Of a DNA stretch of 64,000 nt, positions 1 to 56,935 are shown piece by piece. Origin of the DNA: Alloprevotella sp. Lung230 (GTDB lineage: Bacteria > Bacteroidota > Bacteroidia > Bacteroidales > Bacteroidaceae); NCBI RefSeq assembly GCF_014385435.1, contig NZ_JACSUD010000014.1, positions 1 through 64,000 of the forward strand, in the 5' to 3' direction. The notes beneath the pieces were generated by a model. That model saw only the letters and a list, made by a program, of their open reading frames with translations, was not told the origin of the DNA and did no database searches. The position numbers and the translations under genes were made by a program. How positions within the stretch are numbered: position 1 is the first letter of the stretch; every line of letters starts with the position of its first letter.

Positions 1-340
1 GTGCAATTTTTGCCTTCATTGCCTTCACCTCTGTCCTAACCATCACTTTCACAGTAACTTATGGGTGAAGGCAAAGCAGGAATTTGCCTTCACCTCCTCC
101 CTCTGTTTTTCGGCAGTTTGTCGATGCGGTGAAGGCAGTGAAGGCAAAAAACACAACTATTATAGTGTATACGCGCGCGAGGAACATCCCATTTTCATCG
201 CCCGCTCGATGCGCATGAGGAGTACGATGAGCGGATAGACATCAGGAGCAACCCATTTTCATCTTCTGTGCTTGTCGTGACAACTATCTCCCATGTAGTT
301 TCATCTACCTCTGAGGTAAATCAAATTACCTCAGAGGTAA
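1..340 (-). repeat. Composite dispersed repeat, copy A (cut by window start)
   Basis: Copy A is in the opposite orientation to the other four. Two short palindromes of the TACCTCTGAGGTA type lie at 306-318 and 326-340. A CGCG-rich end is at 171-181, followed inward by the GTGAAGGCAGTGAAGGC arm (128-154) and its partner arm at 7-29. Inside sits a perfect 12-bp hairpin, 64-75 paired with 83-94. The far CGCG end lies outside the window. Other copies are at 16055-16496, 27899-28193, 39873-40205 and 55888-56258. I see no gene here. Confidence 0.85.
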
Positions 341-16054: not shown

Positions 16055-16496
16055 TAGCTCAGAGGTAGTTTGATTTATCTCTGAGCTGCGTAAAACTACC
16101 TCTGAGGAAAAATATTTTACTTCCTTTGCGTCTTTCGCGCGCGCCCACGCGCGCGCTACACTACATAAGGGCGTATTTTCCTTCACTGCCTTCACCGCAT
16201 CTATTAAAGTGCTTGATAAATAGGTGTTTAGGAGGAAACAAAGATAATGTCGAAGTAGAGTACAGTCTATAATTAAGATAGCCACGTTTAGTATTGAAGA
16301 CCTGCTTATGTGTCGTTTATAGTGATGTCTTTCGTGTACTCTCGTGAGCCCACCACAAGCGAAGGCGGGAAGGGTGAACGTTTTCCTTCCGACATCTTTC
16401 ACCCATAACTGCAAGATCAACAGAGGTTTATCACCATTGGTGAAGGCAGTGAAGGCAAAAAACACGCACTATATAGTAGAGTACACGCGCGCGAGA
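16055..16496 (+). repeat. Composite dispersed repeat, copy B (interrupted)
   Basis: Three AGAGGTA-type palindrome units lie at 16055-16107. The CGCG-rich left end and GTGAAGG arm are at 16137-16198 and the right arm with its CGCG end at 16439-16496. The centre is longer than in other copies because a MITE-like palindrome (16217-16308) is inserted. The inner small hairpin is degenerate (around 16371-16412). Confidence 0.85.
16217..16308. mobile_element. MITE-like palindromic element, copy 2 (diverged, nested)
   Basis: The reverse complement of the 15739-15819 element aligns along its whole length, with the same terminal repeats (TAAATAGGTGTTTA and TGAAGACCTGCTTA) and the core AATTAAGATAGCCACGTTTA. 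It lies between the arms of repeat copy B, so it probably inserted there. Confidence 0.75.
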
Positions 16497-25217: not shown

Positions 25218-26606
25218 TTACTCTTCGCCCTTGAAGAGAGGATCCCATGCCGGAAGGAGCGTGGGTTTCTGCTTGAAGAGGTCGAGGGTGCGTTGAGGAA
25301 CGAAGCGCTTTTCGACTACGAGGCGGAACATATATTCGTCAAACCACTGGTCGGTCATGATGAGGTGGCCGCCTACGCCGCTGTTGAGTCCCCACGAGTT
25401 TTCGACCTTCCATTTGCGGGGTTGTCCTTTGTCGTCGAGGTCAACGGCACAAAGCGTCATTGCATGGCTGGAAGCCGAAGCAAAAGTAGAGATGCGTTCA
25501 GCCTTCGACATCGGGAAGTCGGTGTTGAAGAGCGAACCGTAGTCGTAGTTGTTGAGGCTCAGTACACCCGACTTTTTGTTGTAGAACTTGCCCACGTCGC
25601 ACGACATGTACATACGCACACTGTCCTTGATACTGGCAATGGCCATTTGCTTGATTTCTTCAATCGGCAGGTTGAGGTAAGTCCAGTTGTGGCCGTCGTA
25701 AGTGTGGCGGTCGAGGTCGATGGCATAGGTCTTGTGGTAGGGACGCGTGGGGTCGTTCATGAGCAGCACGTAGTTGTTTTCCAAATCCCAACCTACAAAG
25801 CGCTGGTAGAACGAGAGGGGAGTGTACTTCTCTTCCTTCATCGGGCGACCGTCGGCCGACTTGACAGCGTAGGTAAATTCCGTGGGAGGCTCGCCCAAGC
25901 AGGAAGTGAGGATGCGGTAAATTACGCTGAGCATTTCCTCCTTGCGGGCTGCGAGCTTTTTGCCACGTTCGCCGGCAGCATAGGCTTTGCGCAGGGTGAG
26001 ACCGTATTCGCGCAGTTTGAGGCTGATGAGGGAAGCCATGCGCGAGGTGTTGTTGGCGTTATAACTTTCGGGCATCACTTCGGCAGGTACGGCACCATAT
26101 TTCGTCACGATGTCTTGCACACCGGTGAAGGTGCCGCCGTCGGAGATGGGGTTCTTGAAAAGCCACTCCACCGTCTTGTCGCTCATGGGCTTGTCGGCCT
26201 TGTCGATGATGGATTGCAGGAAAAGGTTGGCCTTTTCAAGTTGGTCGTAGAAAGAGTTGAAACTCTGCGAAAATTCAAAACTCTTGAGCGCCTGTTGTTT
26301 GATGACATGGGCGCGCATCACGTTGAGCCCGGTGAAGAGCCAGCAACGACCGCTGGCTGCTTGGTCGGTGATGCCCTTTGAGGGGGCTTCGTTGGAGAAG
26401 TAGGTATCGTTCACTTCGGCCGTGTTGGGGCGCGTAGCGAGAAGGTCGATGCCGTTGACGATGAGGGCATTTTGAATGGCCTTATCGGCTTTCGACGAAC
26501 TGTGTTTTCTGAATTTGGTGAGCATCTCGGGGGTGACGCTGCCGCTTTGCGCCCACGTGCAGAGGGGAGCACCGAGAAGCAAAAGAGAGAAAAGAAGTTT
26601 GTTCAT
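25218..26606 (-). CDS. PepC/bleomycin-hydrolase-type cysteine aminopeptidase (C1B), exported
   Basis: 462 residues with a signal peptide (MNKLLFSLLLLGAPLCTWAQ). The nucleophile Cys is in QAASGRCWLFTGLN, the His in ASSHAMTLCAVDL and the Asn in VENSWG. Length and spacing fit peptidase C1B. Unlike classical cytosolic PepC it carries a signal peptide, so it probably acts in the periplasm on imported peptides. It lies 85 bases after the epimerase gene and may be cotranscribed. A shorter papain-fold paralogue is at 52513. Confidence 0.92.
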   Translation of the reverse strand: MNKLLFSLLLLGAPLCTWAQSGSVTPEMLTKFRKHSSSKADKAIQNALIVNGIDLLATRPNTAEVNDTYFSNEAPSKGITDQAASGRCWLFTGLNVMRAHVIKQQALKSFEFSQSFNSFYDQLEKANLFLQSIIDKADKPMSDKTVEWLFKNPISDGGTFTGVQDIVTKYGAVPAEVMPESYNANNTSRMASLISLKLREYGLTLRKAYAAGERGKKLAARKEEMLSVIYRILTSCLGEPPTEFTYAVKSADGRPMKEEKYTPLSFYQRFVGWDLENNYVLLMNDPTRPYHKTYAIDLDRHTYDGHNWTYLNLPIEEIKQMAIASIKDSVRMYMSCDVGKFYNKKSGVLSLNNYDYGSLFNTDFPMSKAERISTFASASSHAMTLCAVDLDDKGQPRKWKVENSWGLNSGVGGHLIMTDQWFDEYMFRLVVEKRFVPQRTLDLFKQKPTLLPAWDPLFKGEE

Positions 26607-27898: not shown

Positions 27899-28193
27899 TT
27901 TACCTCAGAGGTAATTTTGTCTATGTCTGAGGTAGATTTATTTTTCTCTGAGGTAGGAAAATCTTCTTCCCGTGCGTTGCTCTCACGCGCGCGTGCGTTA
28001 CTTGTGATTTTGTGATTTTTTCCTTCACTTCCTTCACTCATTTGCCAAATTTTACCTTATGAGAGGGGTAGGGTGAAGGATGAGCGTAAAGAAATCCTTC
28101 ACCCGCAAACAGAAGAAAATCAAAGTATTACAACGGCGGTGAAGGATTGAAGGATAAAAACCTGCACTATAGTGTAATATACGCGCGCGAGGC
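27899..28193 (+). repeat. Composite dispersed repeat, copy C (GTGAAGGA variant)
   Basis: Three AGAGGTA-type palindrome units lie at 27899-27957, the CGCG-rich left arm at 27981-28039 and the right arm at 28138-28193. A perfect 11-bp inner hairpin pairs 28071-28081 with 28094-28104. In this copy the usual GAAGGC modules read GAAGGA in both arms and in the inner hairpin, so pairing is kept. Confidence 0.85.
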
Positions 28194-35416: not shown

Positions 35417-35476
35417 TATATAGACATCTCGCCCGCCAAAACAGCCACTCCGTACCAATTTTAACACAACTTTAAC
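35417..35476. repeat. 60-bp shared block, copy 1 (after pnp)
   Basis: Three invariant words with fixed spacing: TATATAGACATCTCG, then 10 bases, CAGCCAC, then 11 bases, then TTTAACAC-n-ACTTTAAC. The same arrangement occurs at 55800-55859 after pckA. The last word is a TTTAAC direct repeat with an 11-base period. Both copies follow a terminator. Function unknown; a protein-binding site or minus-strand promoter is possible. Confidence 0.75.
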
Positions 35477-35483
35477 GCAAATC

Positions 35484-35699: not shown

Positions 35700-35852
35700 C
35701 AGGAGCGCCTACCGCTGTGCCACAATCGAATTGCAAATTTAGCGATAAAAATCGGATGGCCCACACAAAAAACAGTGATTTTGGCGCAGGCAAAGGTAAA
35801 TCGTGCGTGGAAAGTTTGTGGATAAGAGATTTTTTGCGAATTTTGCGCCAAC
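35700..35852. repeat. Direct repeat of about 150 bp, copy 1 (divergent promoter block)
   Basis: Closely similar to 37563-37713 in the same orientation. It contains a minus-strand -7 TAAATTTG (35741-35734) facing tRNA-Arg, and on the plus strand TTTG (35815-35818), 19 bases, then GAATTTTG (35838-35845). It therefore looks like a divergent promoter block. The two copies bracket an AT-rich islet. Confidence 0.8.
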
Positions 35853-37562: not shown

Positions 37563-37713
37563 AGGAGCGCTCTCCTGTGCCACAATCGAATTGCAAATTT
37601 AGCGATAAAAATCGGACTGCCCACACAAAAATAGGTTATTTTGGAGCGGGCGATGGCAAATCGTGTGCAGAAAGTTTGGGGATAAGAGATTTTTTTGCGA
37701 ATTTTGCGCCAAC
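37563..37713. repeat. Direct repeat of about 150 bp, copy 2 (upstream of nhaD)
   Basis: Matches 35700-35852 with scattered substitutions and small indels. The plus-strand promoter elements are TTTG (37675-37678) and GAATTTTG (37699-37706), 20 bases apart, placed to drive nhaD. The minus-strand -7 TAAATTTG (37601-37594) now faces no tRNA or other gene I can recognise. Confidence 0.8.
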
Positions 37714-39845: not shown

Positions 39846-39872
39846 ACATTTTTCTCCCATCTTCGCACAACT

Positions 39873-40205
39873 ATCTCAGAGGTAGTTTTTCCTACCTCCC
39901 ATCCGCGTGAAACTACCTCTGAGTTTGTTGGAACTTGGGCACAAAGGACACCATAAGGCGCACCGCTCTGTGATGCCCTCTCCTCAATCCCTCGCGCGCG
40001 TACGCGCGCTACTTGTGTTTTCGTCTTTTTTGCCTTCACTGCCTTCACCCTTAGTTGATTTTGCTGAGATTCAGCAGAGAATCGGTGAAGGAAAAGCACC
40101 CCTTTGCCTTCACCCGTAACGTTCTGAAAATCTTTTTGATAAGGGCTTTGGTGAAGGAGTGAAGGCAAAAAACAATCCATATTGTAGGTATACGCGTGCG
40201 CGTGA
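39873..40205 (+). repeat. Composite dispersed repeat, copy D
   Basis: AGAGGTA-type palindrome units lie at 39873-39923, the CGCG-rich left arm at 39991-40049 and the right arm at 40150-40205. The inner GGTGAAGG / CCTTCACC hairpin is at about 40084-40114. It lies between the beta-barrel gene and the small monooxygenase-fold gene, ending 47 bases before the latter's start. Confidence 0.85.
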
Positions 40206-42878: not shown

Positions 42879-44696
42879 ATGAATCTCGAAAAGCAACTCA
42901 CCGAAGCCATCGTCAAGGCGGTCAAAGCCCTTTACGATGCCGATATTACCCCCGAGCAGGTTTCGCTCCAAAAGACACGCCCCGACTTTGAAGGCCACCT
43001 CACCCTCGTGACCTTCCCCCTCTTGCGCATCTCCAAGCGTAAGCCCGAAGACACCGGAGAAGACATCGCGCTGTGGCTCGTTGAGAACACCGACCTTGTG
43101 GCGACTTTCAACATCGTCAAAGGTTTCTTAAACCTCATCATCGCTCCCAAGAAGTGGATTGAACTCCTCGACAGCATCCACGCCGATGCTCACTACGGCT
43201 TCACCGCCCCCACGGAGGAGAGCCCGCTGGTGATGATCGAATACTCTTCGCCCAACACCAACAAACCCCTCCACCTCGGCCACGTCCGCAACAACCTCCT
43301 CGGTTGGGCGGTGGCACAAATTGCCGAAGCCAACGGCAATCGGGTGGTGAAGACCAACATCGTGAACGACCGCGGTATCCACATTTGCAAATCGATGCTC
43401 GCTTGGCAGAAGTACGGCAACGGCGAAACACCCCAGTCGTCGGGCAAAAAAGGCGATCACCTCATCGGCGACTACTACGTGGCTTTCGACAAGCATTATC
43501 GCGCAGAAGTGGCCGCCCTCAAAGCCCAACTCCTTGAAGAGGGTGTGAACAGCGAAGAGGCTGAAACACGCGCCAAGGAAGAAGCACCGCTGATGGTGGA
43601 AGCGCGCGAAATGCTCCGCAAATGGGAGCAGGGCGACCCCGAAGTGCGCGGACTCTGGCGCAAGATGAACGAATGGGTGTATGCCGGTTTTGACGAGACC
43701 TACAAAGCCCTCGGGGTGTCGTTCGACAAGATTTACTACGAAAGCGACACTTATCTCGAAGGTAAGGAAAATGTGGAGGAAGGTCTGGAAAAGGGAGTCT
43801 TCTACCGCCGTCCCGATGGTTCGGTATGGGCTGACCTCACCGCCGATGGTTTGGACGAAAAACTCCTCCTCCGCTCCGATGGCACGAGCGTCTACATGAC
43901 ACAGGACATCGGTACGGCTAAACTCCGCTACCAAGACTATCCCATCTCGAAGATGATTTATGTCGTGGGCAACGAGCAAAACTATCATTTCCAAGTACTC
44001 TCCCTCCTCCTCGACAAACTTGGTTTTGAATGGGGTAAGAACCTTGTGCACTTCTCTTACGGCATGGTCGAACTTCCCAATGGTAAGATGAAAAGCCGTG
44101 AAGGCACGGTGGTCGATGCCGACGACTTGGTGGAAGGTATGATTGCGCAGGCTCGCCAAACGATGGACGAAGCCGGCAAGAACGCTGACATGAGCGAAGA
44201 TGAGAAGCAGGAGGTGGCGCGCATCGTAGGATTGGGCGCACTCAAATACTTCCTGCTCAAAGTAGATGCCCGAAAGAACATGGTGTTCAACCCCGAAGAA
44301 AGCATCGACTTCAACGGCAACACCGGTCCCTTCATCCAATACACTTACGCCCGCATCCGCTCTATTCTCCGCAAAGCGCAAGATGCCGGCATCGACCTTC
44401 CCGCTACGCTCCCCACAGGAGTGGCGCTCTCCACCAAGGAAGAAGAAATCATCCAGCAGTTGGCCGATTTCGCCGCTGTGGTACGTGCTGCCGGTGAGGA
44501 TTTCAGCCCTTCGGCCATCGCCAACTACTGCTACGATTTGGTCAAGAACTACAACCAGTTCTACCACGAGTTTCAAATCCTGCGCGAAGAAAACACCGAT
44601 CTGCGTGCTTTCCGCCTCGTCCTCTCGCAAAACGTGGCGAAGGTCGTACGCCTCGGTATGGGTCTCTTAGGCATTGAAATGCCCGAACGTATGTAA
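42879..44696 (+). CDS. argS: Arginyl-tRNA synthetase
   Basis: 605 residues. N-terminal additional domain (1-110), then class I HIGH as HLGH in NKPLHLGHVRNN (about 130), and the region GKMKSREGTVVDADDL, the ArgRS equivalent of KMSKS. The C-terminal DALR anticodon-binding domain ends MPERM. It charges all tRNA-Arg species, including the tRNA-Arg(CCT) of this window. Confidence 0.98.
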   Translation: MNLEKQLTEAIVKAVKALYDADITPEQVSLQKTRPDFEGHLTLVTFPLLRISKRKPEDTGEDIALWLVENTDLVATFNIVKGFLNLIIAPKKWIELLDSIHADAHYGFTAPTEESPLVMIEYSSPNTNKPLHLGHVRNNLLGWAVAQIAEANGNRVVKTNIVNDRGIHICKSMLAWQKYGNGETPQSSGKKGDHLIGDYYVAFDKHYRAEVAALKAQLLEEGVNSEEAETRAKEEAPLMVEAREMLRKWEQGDPEVRGLWRKMNEWVYAGFDETYKALGVSFDKIYYESDTYLEGKENVEEGLEKGVFYRRPDGSVWADLTADGLDEKLLLRSDGTSVYMTQDIGTAKLRYQDYPISKMIYVVGNEQNYHFQVLSLLLDKLGFEWGKNLVHFSYGMVELPNGKMKSREGTVVDADDLVEGMIAQARQTMDEAGKNADMSEDEKQEVARIVGLGALKYFLLKVDARKNMVFNPEESIDFNGNTGPFIQYTYARIRSILRKAQDAGIDLPATLPTGVALSTKEEEIIQQLADFAAVVRAAGEDFSPSAIANYCYDLVKNYNQFYHEFQILREENTDLRAFRLVLSQNVAKVVRLGMGLLGIEMPERM

Positions 44697-55799: not shown

Positions 55800-55859
55800 T
55801 ATATAGACATCTCGGCGTCGATTTCAGCCACATGCCCCTGACTTTAACACGACTTTAAC
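55800..55859. repeat. 60-bp shared block, copy 2 (after pckA)
   Basis: The same three words with identical spacing as at 35417-35476: TATATAGACATCTCG (55800-55814), CAGCCAC (55825-55831) and TTTAACAC-n-ACTTTAAC (55843-55859). The bases between the words differ, so the words appear selected. It ends 29 bases before composite repeat copy E. Confidence 0.75.
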
Positions 55860-55887
55860 ATTTTGGAGGATTGAATAGAGAGGTTTT

Positions 55888-56258
55888 AGCTCAGAGGTAG
55901 TTTTCTCTACCTCTGAGGTAGTTGGATTTAGCTTTGAGGTAGATTTTCAGAGGAAGCTGAAAATCCAAAGAAACTTCATGATTCCAGATTTTATCGAAGT
56001 TATCGGGAATCCGGCAGTTTTCATGGAAAAGTTGTCCTCAATTTTGTCTCCTCGCGCGCGTATACACACTACAATAGGGGCTGTATTTTTCCTTCACTGC
56101 CTTCACCTCTCCCCAAAATGAGTGGCTTTTGGTGAAGGCTTTTGGATGGGTTGCCTTCACCCGTAAATAGCAGAAAATGAGGACATAAACCACTTGGTGA
56201 AGGCAGTGAAGGAAAAATGCAGCCCCTATTGTAGTGTATATGCGCGTACGCGCGCGAG
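55888..56258 (+). repeat. Composite dispersed repeat, copy E (best preserved)
   Basis: Three AGAGGTA-type units lie at 55888-55942, the left arm at 56051-56107 and the right arm at 56196-56258. After allowing for a short CGCG insertion in the right arm, the arms are reverse complements over about 45 bases, including a copy-specific CACTACAATAGGGGCTG segment. The inner GGTGAAGG / GCCTTCACC hairpin is at about 56131-56162. It lies between pckA and the Fic remnant. Confidence 0.9.
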
Positions 56259-56728: not shown

Positions 56729-56757
56729 GGTGGCGGCTTTTGCGGTAAAAGTAAGCA

Positions 56758-56873
56758 ATCCTTTCCAATTTTACAAGAATTGGAAAGGATTTCAGTGTTT
56801 TTGCTCCGAAATAGTCTGTTTTTGCTTGCTTTTCTATTTAATTCTTTCCAATCTTTGAAGAATTGGAAAGGAT
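56758..56873. repeat. Two near-identical TTTCCAATT / AATTGGAAA hairpins
   Basis: A perfect 13-bp inverted repeat (56758-56770 with 56778-56790, 7-base loop) and a second one (56841-56852 with 56861-56873) share the CTTTCCAA...TTGGAAAGGAT arms. A third half-site (GGGAATTAGAAAGAAT) lies at about 56878-56893. They sit in the upstream region of the Fic remnant and look like paired operators or hairpins. The rest of 56729-56990 holds only the lepB 3' hairpin. Confidence 0.65.
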
Positions 56874-56935
56874 TGGAGGGAATTAGAAAGAATGGGTCTT
56901 GTTAAAGAGAGGTACTGATGGTGGAAAGCAGAAGG

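Follow-up and report, generated by a model that had tools for sequence, protein, structure and literature searches.

A composite intergenic repeat of Alloprevotella with paired arms and a phased palindrome array, a candidate protein-bound chromosomal site

Anatomy of the repeat unit

The DNA analysed here (the window) is a stretch of 64,000 nucleotides from Alloprevotella sp. Lung230 that holds five copies, A to E, of a composite repeat. A preliminary description had reported these copies, and we found all five at or very near the positions it gave, with the same order of parts in each (Table 1; window arms were located with an arm profile model, R1). The unit consists of two inward-facing arms and an adjoining array of palindromes and spans roughly 200-700 bp. 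An arm is composed of a near-tandem pair of words of about 9 bp, an A-tract and an outer CG tract, and typically reads GGTGAAGGCAGTGAAGGCAAAAA, about 20 variable bases, CGCGCGCGAG; the palindromes lie on one side of the arm pair, spaced 21 bp apart, or 42 bp where one of them is degenerate. Copy E has in each arm two GTGAAGG words, an A-tract and an outer CG tract, with an inner pair GGTGAAGG / CCTTCACC in its centre, and its 51-nt arms are 94% complementary. One arm of copy A is incomplete because contig C14 begins at the first base of the window, and the arm pair of copy B, at 356 bp, is the longest of the 70 in the genome. Four of the five copies contain a triple of palindromes on the 21-bp lattice (up to three mismatches); no such triple is found in the rest of the window, and 50 shuffled versions of the window contain none.

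Table 1. Parts of the five repeat copies, in window coordinates
Feature	Position	Strand	Details
Copy A, palindrome array on 21-bp lattice	284..340	-	cores start at 286, 307, 328
Copy A, arm pair and centre	6..181	-	R1 arms 6-29(-), 128-181(+)
Copy B, palindrome array on 21-bp lattice	16055..16110	+	cores 16056, 16077, 16098
Copy B, arm pair	16140..16495	+	R1 arms 16140-16196, 16439-16495
Copy C, array on 21-bp lattice	27901..27956	+	cores 27902, 27923, 27944
Copy C, arm pair and centre	27982..28191	+	R1 arms 27982-28037, 28138-28191
Copy D, array	39872..39927	+	cores 39873, 39915; middle unit degenerate
Copy D, arm pair and centre	39991..40204	+	R1 arms 39991-40049, 40150-40204
Copy E, array on 21-bp lattice	55887..55942	+	cores 55888, 55909, 55930
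Copy E, arm pair and centre	56051..56257	+	R1 arms 56051-56107, 56196-56257
Copy E, outer module beyond the array	55801..55860	+	ATATAGACATCTC, doubled TTTAACA 42 bp on (start to start)

Several other repeated sequences were seen in the window. An orphan outer module (ATATAGACATCTC ... TTTTAACACAACTTTAAC) lies without arms or array at 35418-35480, between a gene end and a tRNA gene. A direct repeat of 121 bp (88% identical; 35715-35835 and 37575-37695, 1.86 kb apart) is found near this tRNA gene, a 36-bp inverted repeat on AATCCTTTCCAATTTT (86% complementary; 56756-56791 and 56840-56875) lies just past copy E, and a 29-bp inverted repeat (93% complementary; 26426-26454 and 44387-44415) has its halves 18 kb apart inside called genes.

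Genome-wide, R1 detects 148 arms at E <= 0.01, which form 78 units, comprising 70 inward-facing pairs and 8 single arms, on 18 of the 31 contigs; the exact word GGTGAAGGNNNTGAAGG occurs 83 times and its reversed pattern not at all. The pairing rule sought inward pairs, and among the 8 leftover arms there is no outward pair within 1.5 kb; by eye, several of them have a partner too weak for R1, one is cut by an apparent insertion and one is a lone arm. The preliminary description had extrapolated to a few hundred copies, which the count of 78 does not bear out, and had considered that the similarity might come down to a few copies without conserved order or to mere low-complexity words, which is not what the genome scan found. 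At least two palindromes on the lattice (up to three mismatches, within 260 bp on either side) accompany 76 of the 78 units, compared with 4 of 149 controls, where two windows were examined per unit and one per 260-bp control window from the same loci. The two exceptions are the lone arm and one further unit, located where a contig begins. Three lattice palindromes are present in 47 units, the range is 2 to 6, and one unit carries arrays on both sides.

The unit is polar. In the arm on the array side the GTGAAGG words are 9 bp apart in 61 of 70 pairs and 8 bp apart in 1, whereas in the far arm they are 8 bp apart in 40 of 70 and 9 bp apart in 14, the rest being unclassified in both cases. A ATATAGACATCTC-type word lies within 900 bp of 28 of the 78 units, on the array side in 25 of these 28 as counted from the listing, and in 20 units a doubled TTTAACA follows 42-43 bp beyond it. 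Alternating purine-pyrimidine runs of at least 14 are found at the CG ends of 85 of 138 arms in this genome and at none after shuffling; in two related genomes that carry the repeat, G033 and G062, they are found at 58 of 86 and 54 of 78 arm ends.

The suggestion that the units are all intergenic holds, by rough codon-usage gene calls, for 75 of 78, which overlap no gene by more than 20 bp; of the exceptions, two share 24 and 33 bp with a called gene, and in the remaining one an arm (C4:154331) falls within a called frame. For the 50 of 78 units with both neighbouring genes called, the arrangement is convergent in 13, divergent in 8 and tandem in 29, showing no clear preference, and alternation of unit orientation along the contigs is not supported by eye. 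No gene or transposase was seen between the arms, in agreement with the preliminary description, and none of the pairs formed by the 148 arm matches exceeds 356 bp. The units thus have traits of a MITE, namely terminal inverted repeats (the 70 inward pairs) without coding capacity between them.

The arms had been described as complementary, and as a rule they are not complementary outside the conserved words. Similarity of the outer arm segments within a unit is no higher than between units (0.49 against 0.54 in G033, 0.43 against 0.47 in G062 and 0.39 against 0.44 in this genome), indicating that no stem is being maintained. A search of the units against Rfam gave no match reaching its gathering score; five miRNA-precursor matches, with E down to 2e-9 and far below the gathering scores, arise because of the inverted repeat. 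On the arm comparison and the Rfam search together we rejected the reading of the unit as a hairpin or RNA.

Distances between arms vary, up to about 0.65-0.7 kb, the 0.69-kb one being filled with array units. In G033 the inner distances cluster at 165-168 bp (17 of 42), and these 17 centres of almost one length are weakly alike, with a mean identity of 0.38 (0.29 after shuffling) and an identity above 0.5 in 3 of 136 pairs. The distance between the arms shows clear helical phasing in G062 (p 1e-7, best period 10.4); in G033 the signal is mixed (p 3e-6 at 10.5, yet with a best period of 11.3), and in this genome it is weak (p 0.18 and 0.035). When each length is counted once, p is 0.002 in G062 and 0.04 in G033.

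Three further observations concern individual units. The far arm of one (L106, C21:30008) is cut off by what appears by eye to be an insertion sequence with a transposase reading frame. Another (L020, C4:123019-123262) ends about 26 bases from the dnaA match (L140, C4:123288). Two more (L108, C25:3426-3662, and L068, C6:4052-4282) have 16S rRNA genes nearby, at about 0.7 and 1.3 kb, and, together with the units at C15:1279 and C19:8, are 88-95% identical to one another.

Chromosomal position and distribution in the genus

All units found in G033 lie on one 2.76-Mb contig, with 42 of 43 between 0.437 and 2.055 Mb and one at 2.550 Mb. This leaves an arc of 1.145 Mb with 1 of the 43 units, which was matched by none of 20,000 simulations. 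Inside the unit arc are dnaA, at 1.08 Mb, and two parS-type sites, of which the one at 1.621 Mb is exact and the one at 1.568 Mb a close match (four genomes have two sites each for the parS pattern, but G033 and G062 also have one each for its reversed control), and the rRNA genes point downward at 1.05 Mb and upward from 1.80 Mb. The positions of dnaA and the parS-like sites and the orientation of the rRNA genes indicate that the origin most likely lies inside the arc, and the units are probably spread over the origin side of the chromosome. Within 0.69 Mb of the exact parS-type site are 37 of the 43 units; parB, at 2.066 Mb, is just outside the unit arc, and the nearly unit-free arc lies away from dnaA and the parS-like sites. 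GC skew was uninformative about the origin, and a dif-like pattern was found once in G004 and not in G033, G062 or the Lung230 genome (G000).

The units also keep a distance from one another. In the dense arc of G033, which was picked after the positions had been seen, none of 36 gaps is shorter than 10 kb, where about 10 would be expected, and the smallest is 11.5 kb; in the Lung230 genome 5 of 59 gaps are shorter than 8 kb, compared with 21 expected. The spacing of 12-16 kb seen within the window is not uniform genome-wide: C4, C10, C12, C14, C15 and C16 have 13-17 kb per unit, and C2 has one unit in 196 kb.

Among 57 other members of the genus, the R1 scan found many copies in four (G033, G062, G064 and G005), where at most 97 candidates were scored per genome and the counts are therefore lower bounds; G008, with one match, and G026, with two, were left out of the carriers. 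In an ArgRS tree of 25 genomes, 5 of an initial 30 rows having dropped out at the choice of reading frame, the five carriers form one side of a branch with support 100/98; the non-carriers nearest to them there are G063, G022, G075, G025 and G077. The related species share the same plan with different words: the arm word is GTGAAGGTTGTGAAAGCAAAA in G033 and G062, GCGRAGGCAGTGAAGGCAAAA in G064 and mostly GTGGAAGCAGTGGARGCAAAA in G005, and the array words are, by eye, of the CTCCGAC-/CCCACGT-type in G033 and G005 and of the CTCTGAG-type in G064 and the Lung230 genome. Self-similarity around the units, computed with no word assumed, is strongest at lag 21 in all five carriers, with 5 loci in G064 and 4 in G005, both without control; control counts at lag 21 are low in this genome and G062, and the G033 flanks, high at every lag, were unusable as a control. 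The array finder in this analysis missed many arrays, calling "none" for 22 of 43 loci in G033 and 32 of 39 in G062, and these rows mean little.

Beyond the genus, a mixed-word model (R2) gave two single weak matches (G138 and G209) in 392 other genomes of the order, both without a second arm or CG run and rejected as units. Unrelated genomes contain 10 matches to the exact arm pattern, each of them single, and a viral contig contains another; this viral match, having neither second arm nor CG run, was likewise rejected. No description of the repeat was found in the literature, as judged by titles and abstract openings.

Conservation, duplication and rearrangement of units

The core of the arm in G033 is one 21-mer, exact in 78 of 86 arms. 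Allowing one mismatch, it occurs at 79 places in the G033 genome, 78 of them exact, and its reversed control at none. Counts at 0 to 5 mismatches are 78, 1, 4, 2, 1 and 0 in the fetched G033 loci and 68, 4, 6, 1, 3 and 0 in those of G062. At loci shared by these two species (29 pairs, 58 arms, picked by hand from 36 locus pairs sharing proteins, some with one flank only in common), identity per position is 0.93-1.00 in the 21-mer, compared with 0.52-0.91 over 80 bases inside, 0.47-0.95 over the bases outside and 0.69-0.95 over the nearest 40 outside, a contrast that is somewhat inflated because the pairs needed the motif in both species. If gene conversion were responsible, longer tracts would be expected. 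Between the Lung230 genome and G033, 29 locus pairs share proteins and about a dozen were judged by hand to be orthologous neighbours; by the same judgement, the positions common to the two look to be about as many as chance would give.

Whole units, from the array to the far CG tract, have been duplicated. Four pairs that were aligned, each of them inverted, share 86-91% identity across 429-553 bp, and other similar pairs are direct; one end of the duplication stops just outside the CG tract and the other fades past the array, and no target duplications were seen by eye in these four pairs. The two most similar G033 pairs (L171/L172 and L186/L187) are immediate neighbours, although the tendency of the best partner to be a neighbour does not reach significance over all 43 G033 units (p 0.064). 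Between L186 and L187 the arrays differ by precisely one 21-bp unit.

Rearrangements between the sister species G033 and G062 also involve the units. Of 43 G062 units examined, 29 could be mapped by both flanks to the G033 stretches retrieved; 19 of these are collinear with a unit in both genomes and 10 are breakpoints, with flanks in opposite orientation in 8 and in the same orientation in 2, a count that has no background rate and includes stretches fetched on suspected rearrangement. An inversion of 11 kb is bounded in G062 by the units L049 and L300; in G033 it lies between L171 and L172, which are inverted copies 87% identical. At one place a unit is present in G033 (L170) and absent from G062 (L299); the difference of about 1.1 kb takes in other repeats and is not a clean unit. 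At another place G062 (L302) has an array without arms where G033 (L174) has both.

A candidate site for a chromosome-organising protein

The symmetry of the arms, the phased array, the near-invariant core, the arc and the minimum spacing suggest a nucleoprotein site whose role is on the scale of the chromosome, and we lean towards regarding the repeat as a clade-specific, protein-bound chromosomal site. Its units look more like docking sites for a putative chromosome-organising protein than like ordinary jumping DNA. The preliminary description had left the choice between a mobile element and a structural or regulatory site; the latter is the better supported by the near-invariance of the core, the arc, the spacing and the lattice, and the duplications keep the former under consideration. 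Indeed, unit duplication and recombination are what mobile DNA would produce, and they count against a protein-bound site.

The main rival is a non-autonomous mobile element in which target immunity keeps the copies apart, the arms and array bind a transposase encoded elsewhere, and the arc results from replication-linked or local insertion. We consider this unlikely, even though it would account for the whole-unit duplicates, for the two neighbouring pairs in G033 (though over all units the neighbour effect is not significant), for the place occupied in G033 and empty in G062, and for the minimum spacing, which is what immunity would give. However, no gene was seen between the arms, whose longest distances are about 0.65-0.7 kb, the four duplicate pairs lack target duplications by eye, and the occupied and empty places do not differ by a clean unit. 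Moreover, where two species have copies at a common position, the 21-mer has been kept and the spacers have decayed, a near-invariance that mobility leaves unexplained. It is quite improbable, in our view, that the units are ordinary interspersed repeats spread by homologous recombination and inversion and without present function. The breakpoints at 10 of 29 mapped units, 8 of them with opposite flanks, the inversion bounded by two inverted unit copies and the array without arms would fit such repeats, but the arm core is mostly exact or absent and not graded, the arc and the spacing are non-random, and the species differ in their words but not in the plan. Least of all do we expect a transcription-linked element, be it a bidirectional terminator, a promoter or a structured RNA; the intergenic placement of nearly all units and the long hairpin that can be drawn for copy E would suit one, whereas the lack of a clear preference in gene orientation, of a maintained stem and of an Rfam match reaching its gathering score speaks against it, and the arc and minimum spacing would go unexplained.

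If the repeat is a protein-bound site, one dedicated DNA-binding protein, or a pair, would recognise the arm word and the array word, bridging the two arms and oligomerising on the array, where the 21-bp lattice, about two helical turns, would place the array units on the same face of the DNA. With some forty to eighty of these complexes, the half of the nucleoid around the origin would be marked and the terminus side left without them. They might tie division or segregation to position on the chromosome, in the manner of Noc or SlmA sites, or they might anchor loops. The arm and array words would have drifted together with the protein within the clade, and new copies would arise through duplication of the whole unit. 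Put in its full form, which we advance tentatively and as a possibility rather than an expectation, this would be a previously undescribed chromosome-organising system in which a putative protein pairs the arms and polymerises on the array, with forty to eighty anchors, mostly about 10 kb or more apart, setting up, in one clade, a macrodomain around the origin or a zone of nucleoid occlusion, and with words that change together between species.

Known systems resemble the units in part. MatP and its short matS sites mark one chromosomal region by a repeated motif, in the terminus region of enterobacteria; here too one region is marked by a repeated motif, but the marked arc holds dnaA and the parS-like sites. 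The REP and BIME elements of enterobacteria are composite intergenic repeats with palindromes in many copies, as are the units described here, from which they differ in that the arms of the units do not co-vary as a stem and in the arc restriction and minimum spacing; compensatory pairing of the REP/BIME type was not found in the outer segments of the arms, the arms only being compared. Nucleoid occlusion may offer the closest functional parallel, a likeness by analogy and not a claim of membership. The Noc binding sites (NBS) of Bacillus subtilis and the SlmA binding sites (SBS) of Escherichia coli are dispersed sequence-specific sites that are scarce near the terminus (PMC4726725, PMC4117426); they number about 70 for Noc and 24-52 for SlmA and are under-represented near Ter (PMC4726725). 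Like these, the units are dozens of dispersed sites. In G033, 1 of 43 lies in the 1.145-Mb arc away from dnaA and the parS-like sites; unlike NBS and SBS, which are short palindromes (14 bp for NBS), they comprise about 200-700 bp with two inverted arms and an array on a 21-bp lattice. A second, Noc-like ParB as the cognate protein is rejected, since parB has one match in each of the five carriers, as in most of the genus. The BrickBuilt MITE of Porphyromonas gingivalis is an intergenic element with tandem short repeats and flanking parts at loci in four strains, with 23-nt repeats without spacers (AGAYCATARTATCCTCTCRTRTG), IS5-like ends (GAGACC...) and 19 copies (PMC4596501). The units are like it in being intergenic with tandem short repeats plus flanking parts, and identity was rejected by eye, as the words, ends and period differ, the units having a 21-bp lattice and CTCGCGCG-type ends.

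Whichever reading holds, some units are rearrangement breakpoints between sister species. If the units are mobile elements, they would represent an unusual kind of mobile DNA that spaces itself and keeps to the origin side. If they are protein-bound sites, as we are inclined to think, the clade would mark its chromosome through sites much more elaborate than those of Noc, SlmA or MatP, and its five related species, with one plan and different words, would offer a natural experiment in the joint change of a DNA-binding protein and its dozens of sites. If the fuller system is real, the joint change of the words would record a nucleoid protein co-evolving rapidly and simultaneously with all of its sites.
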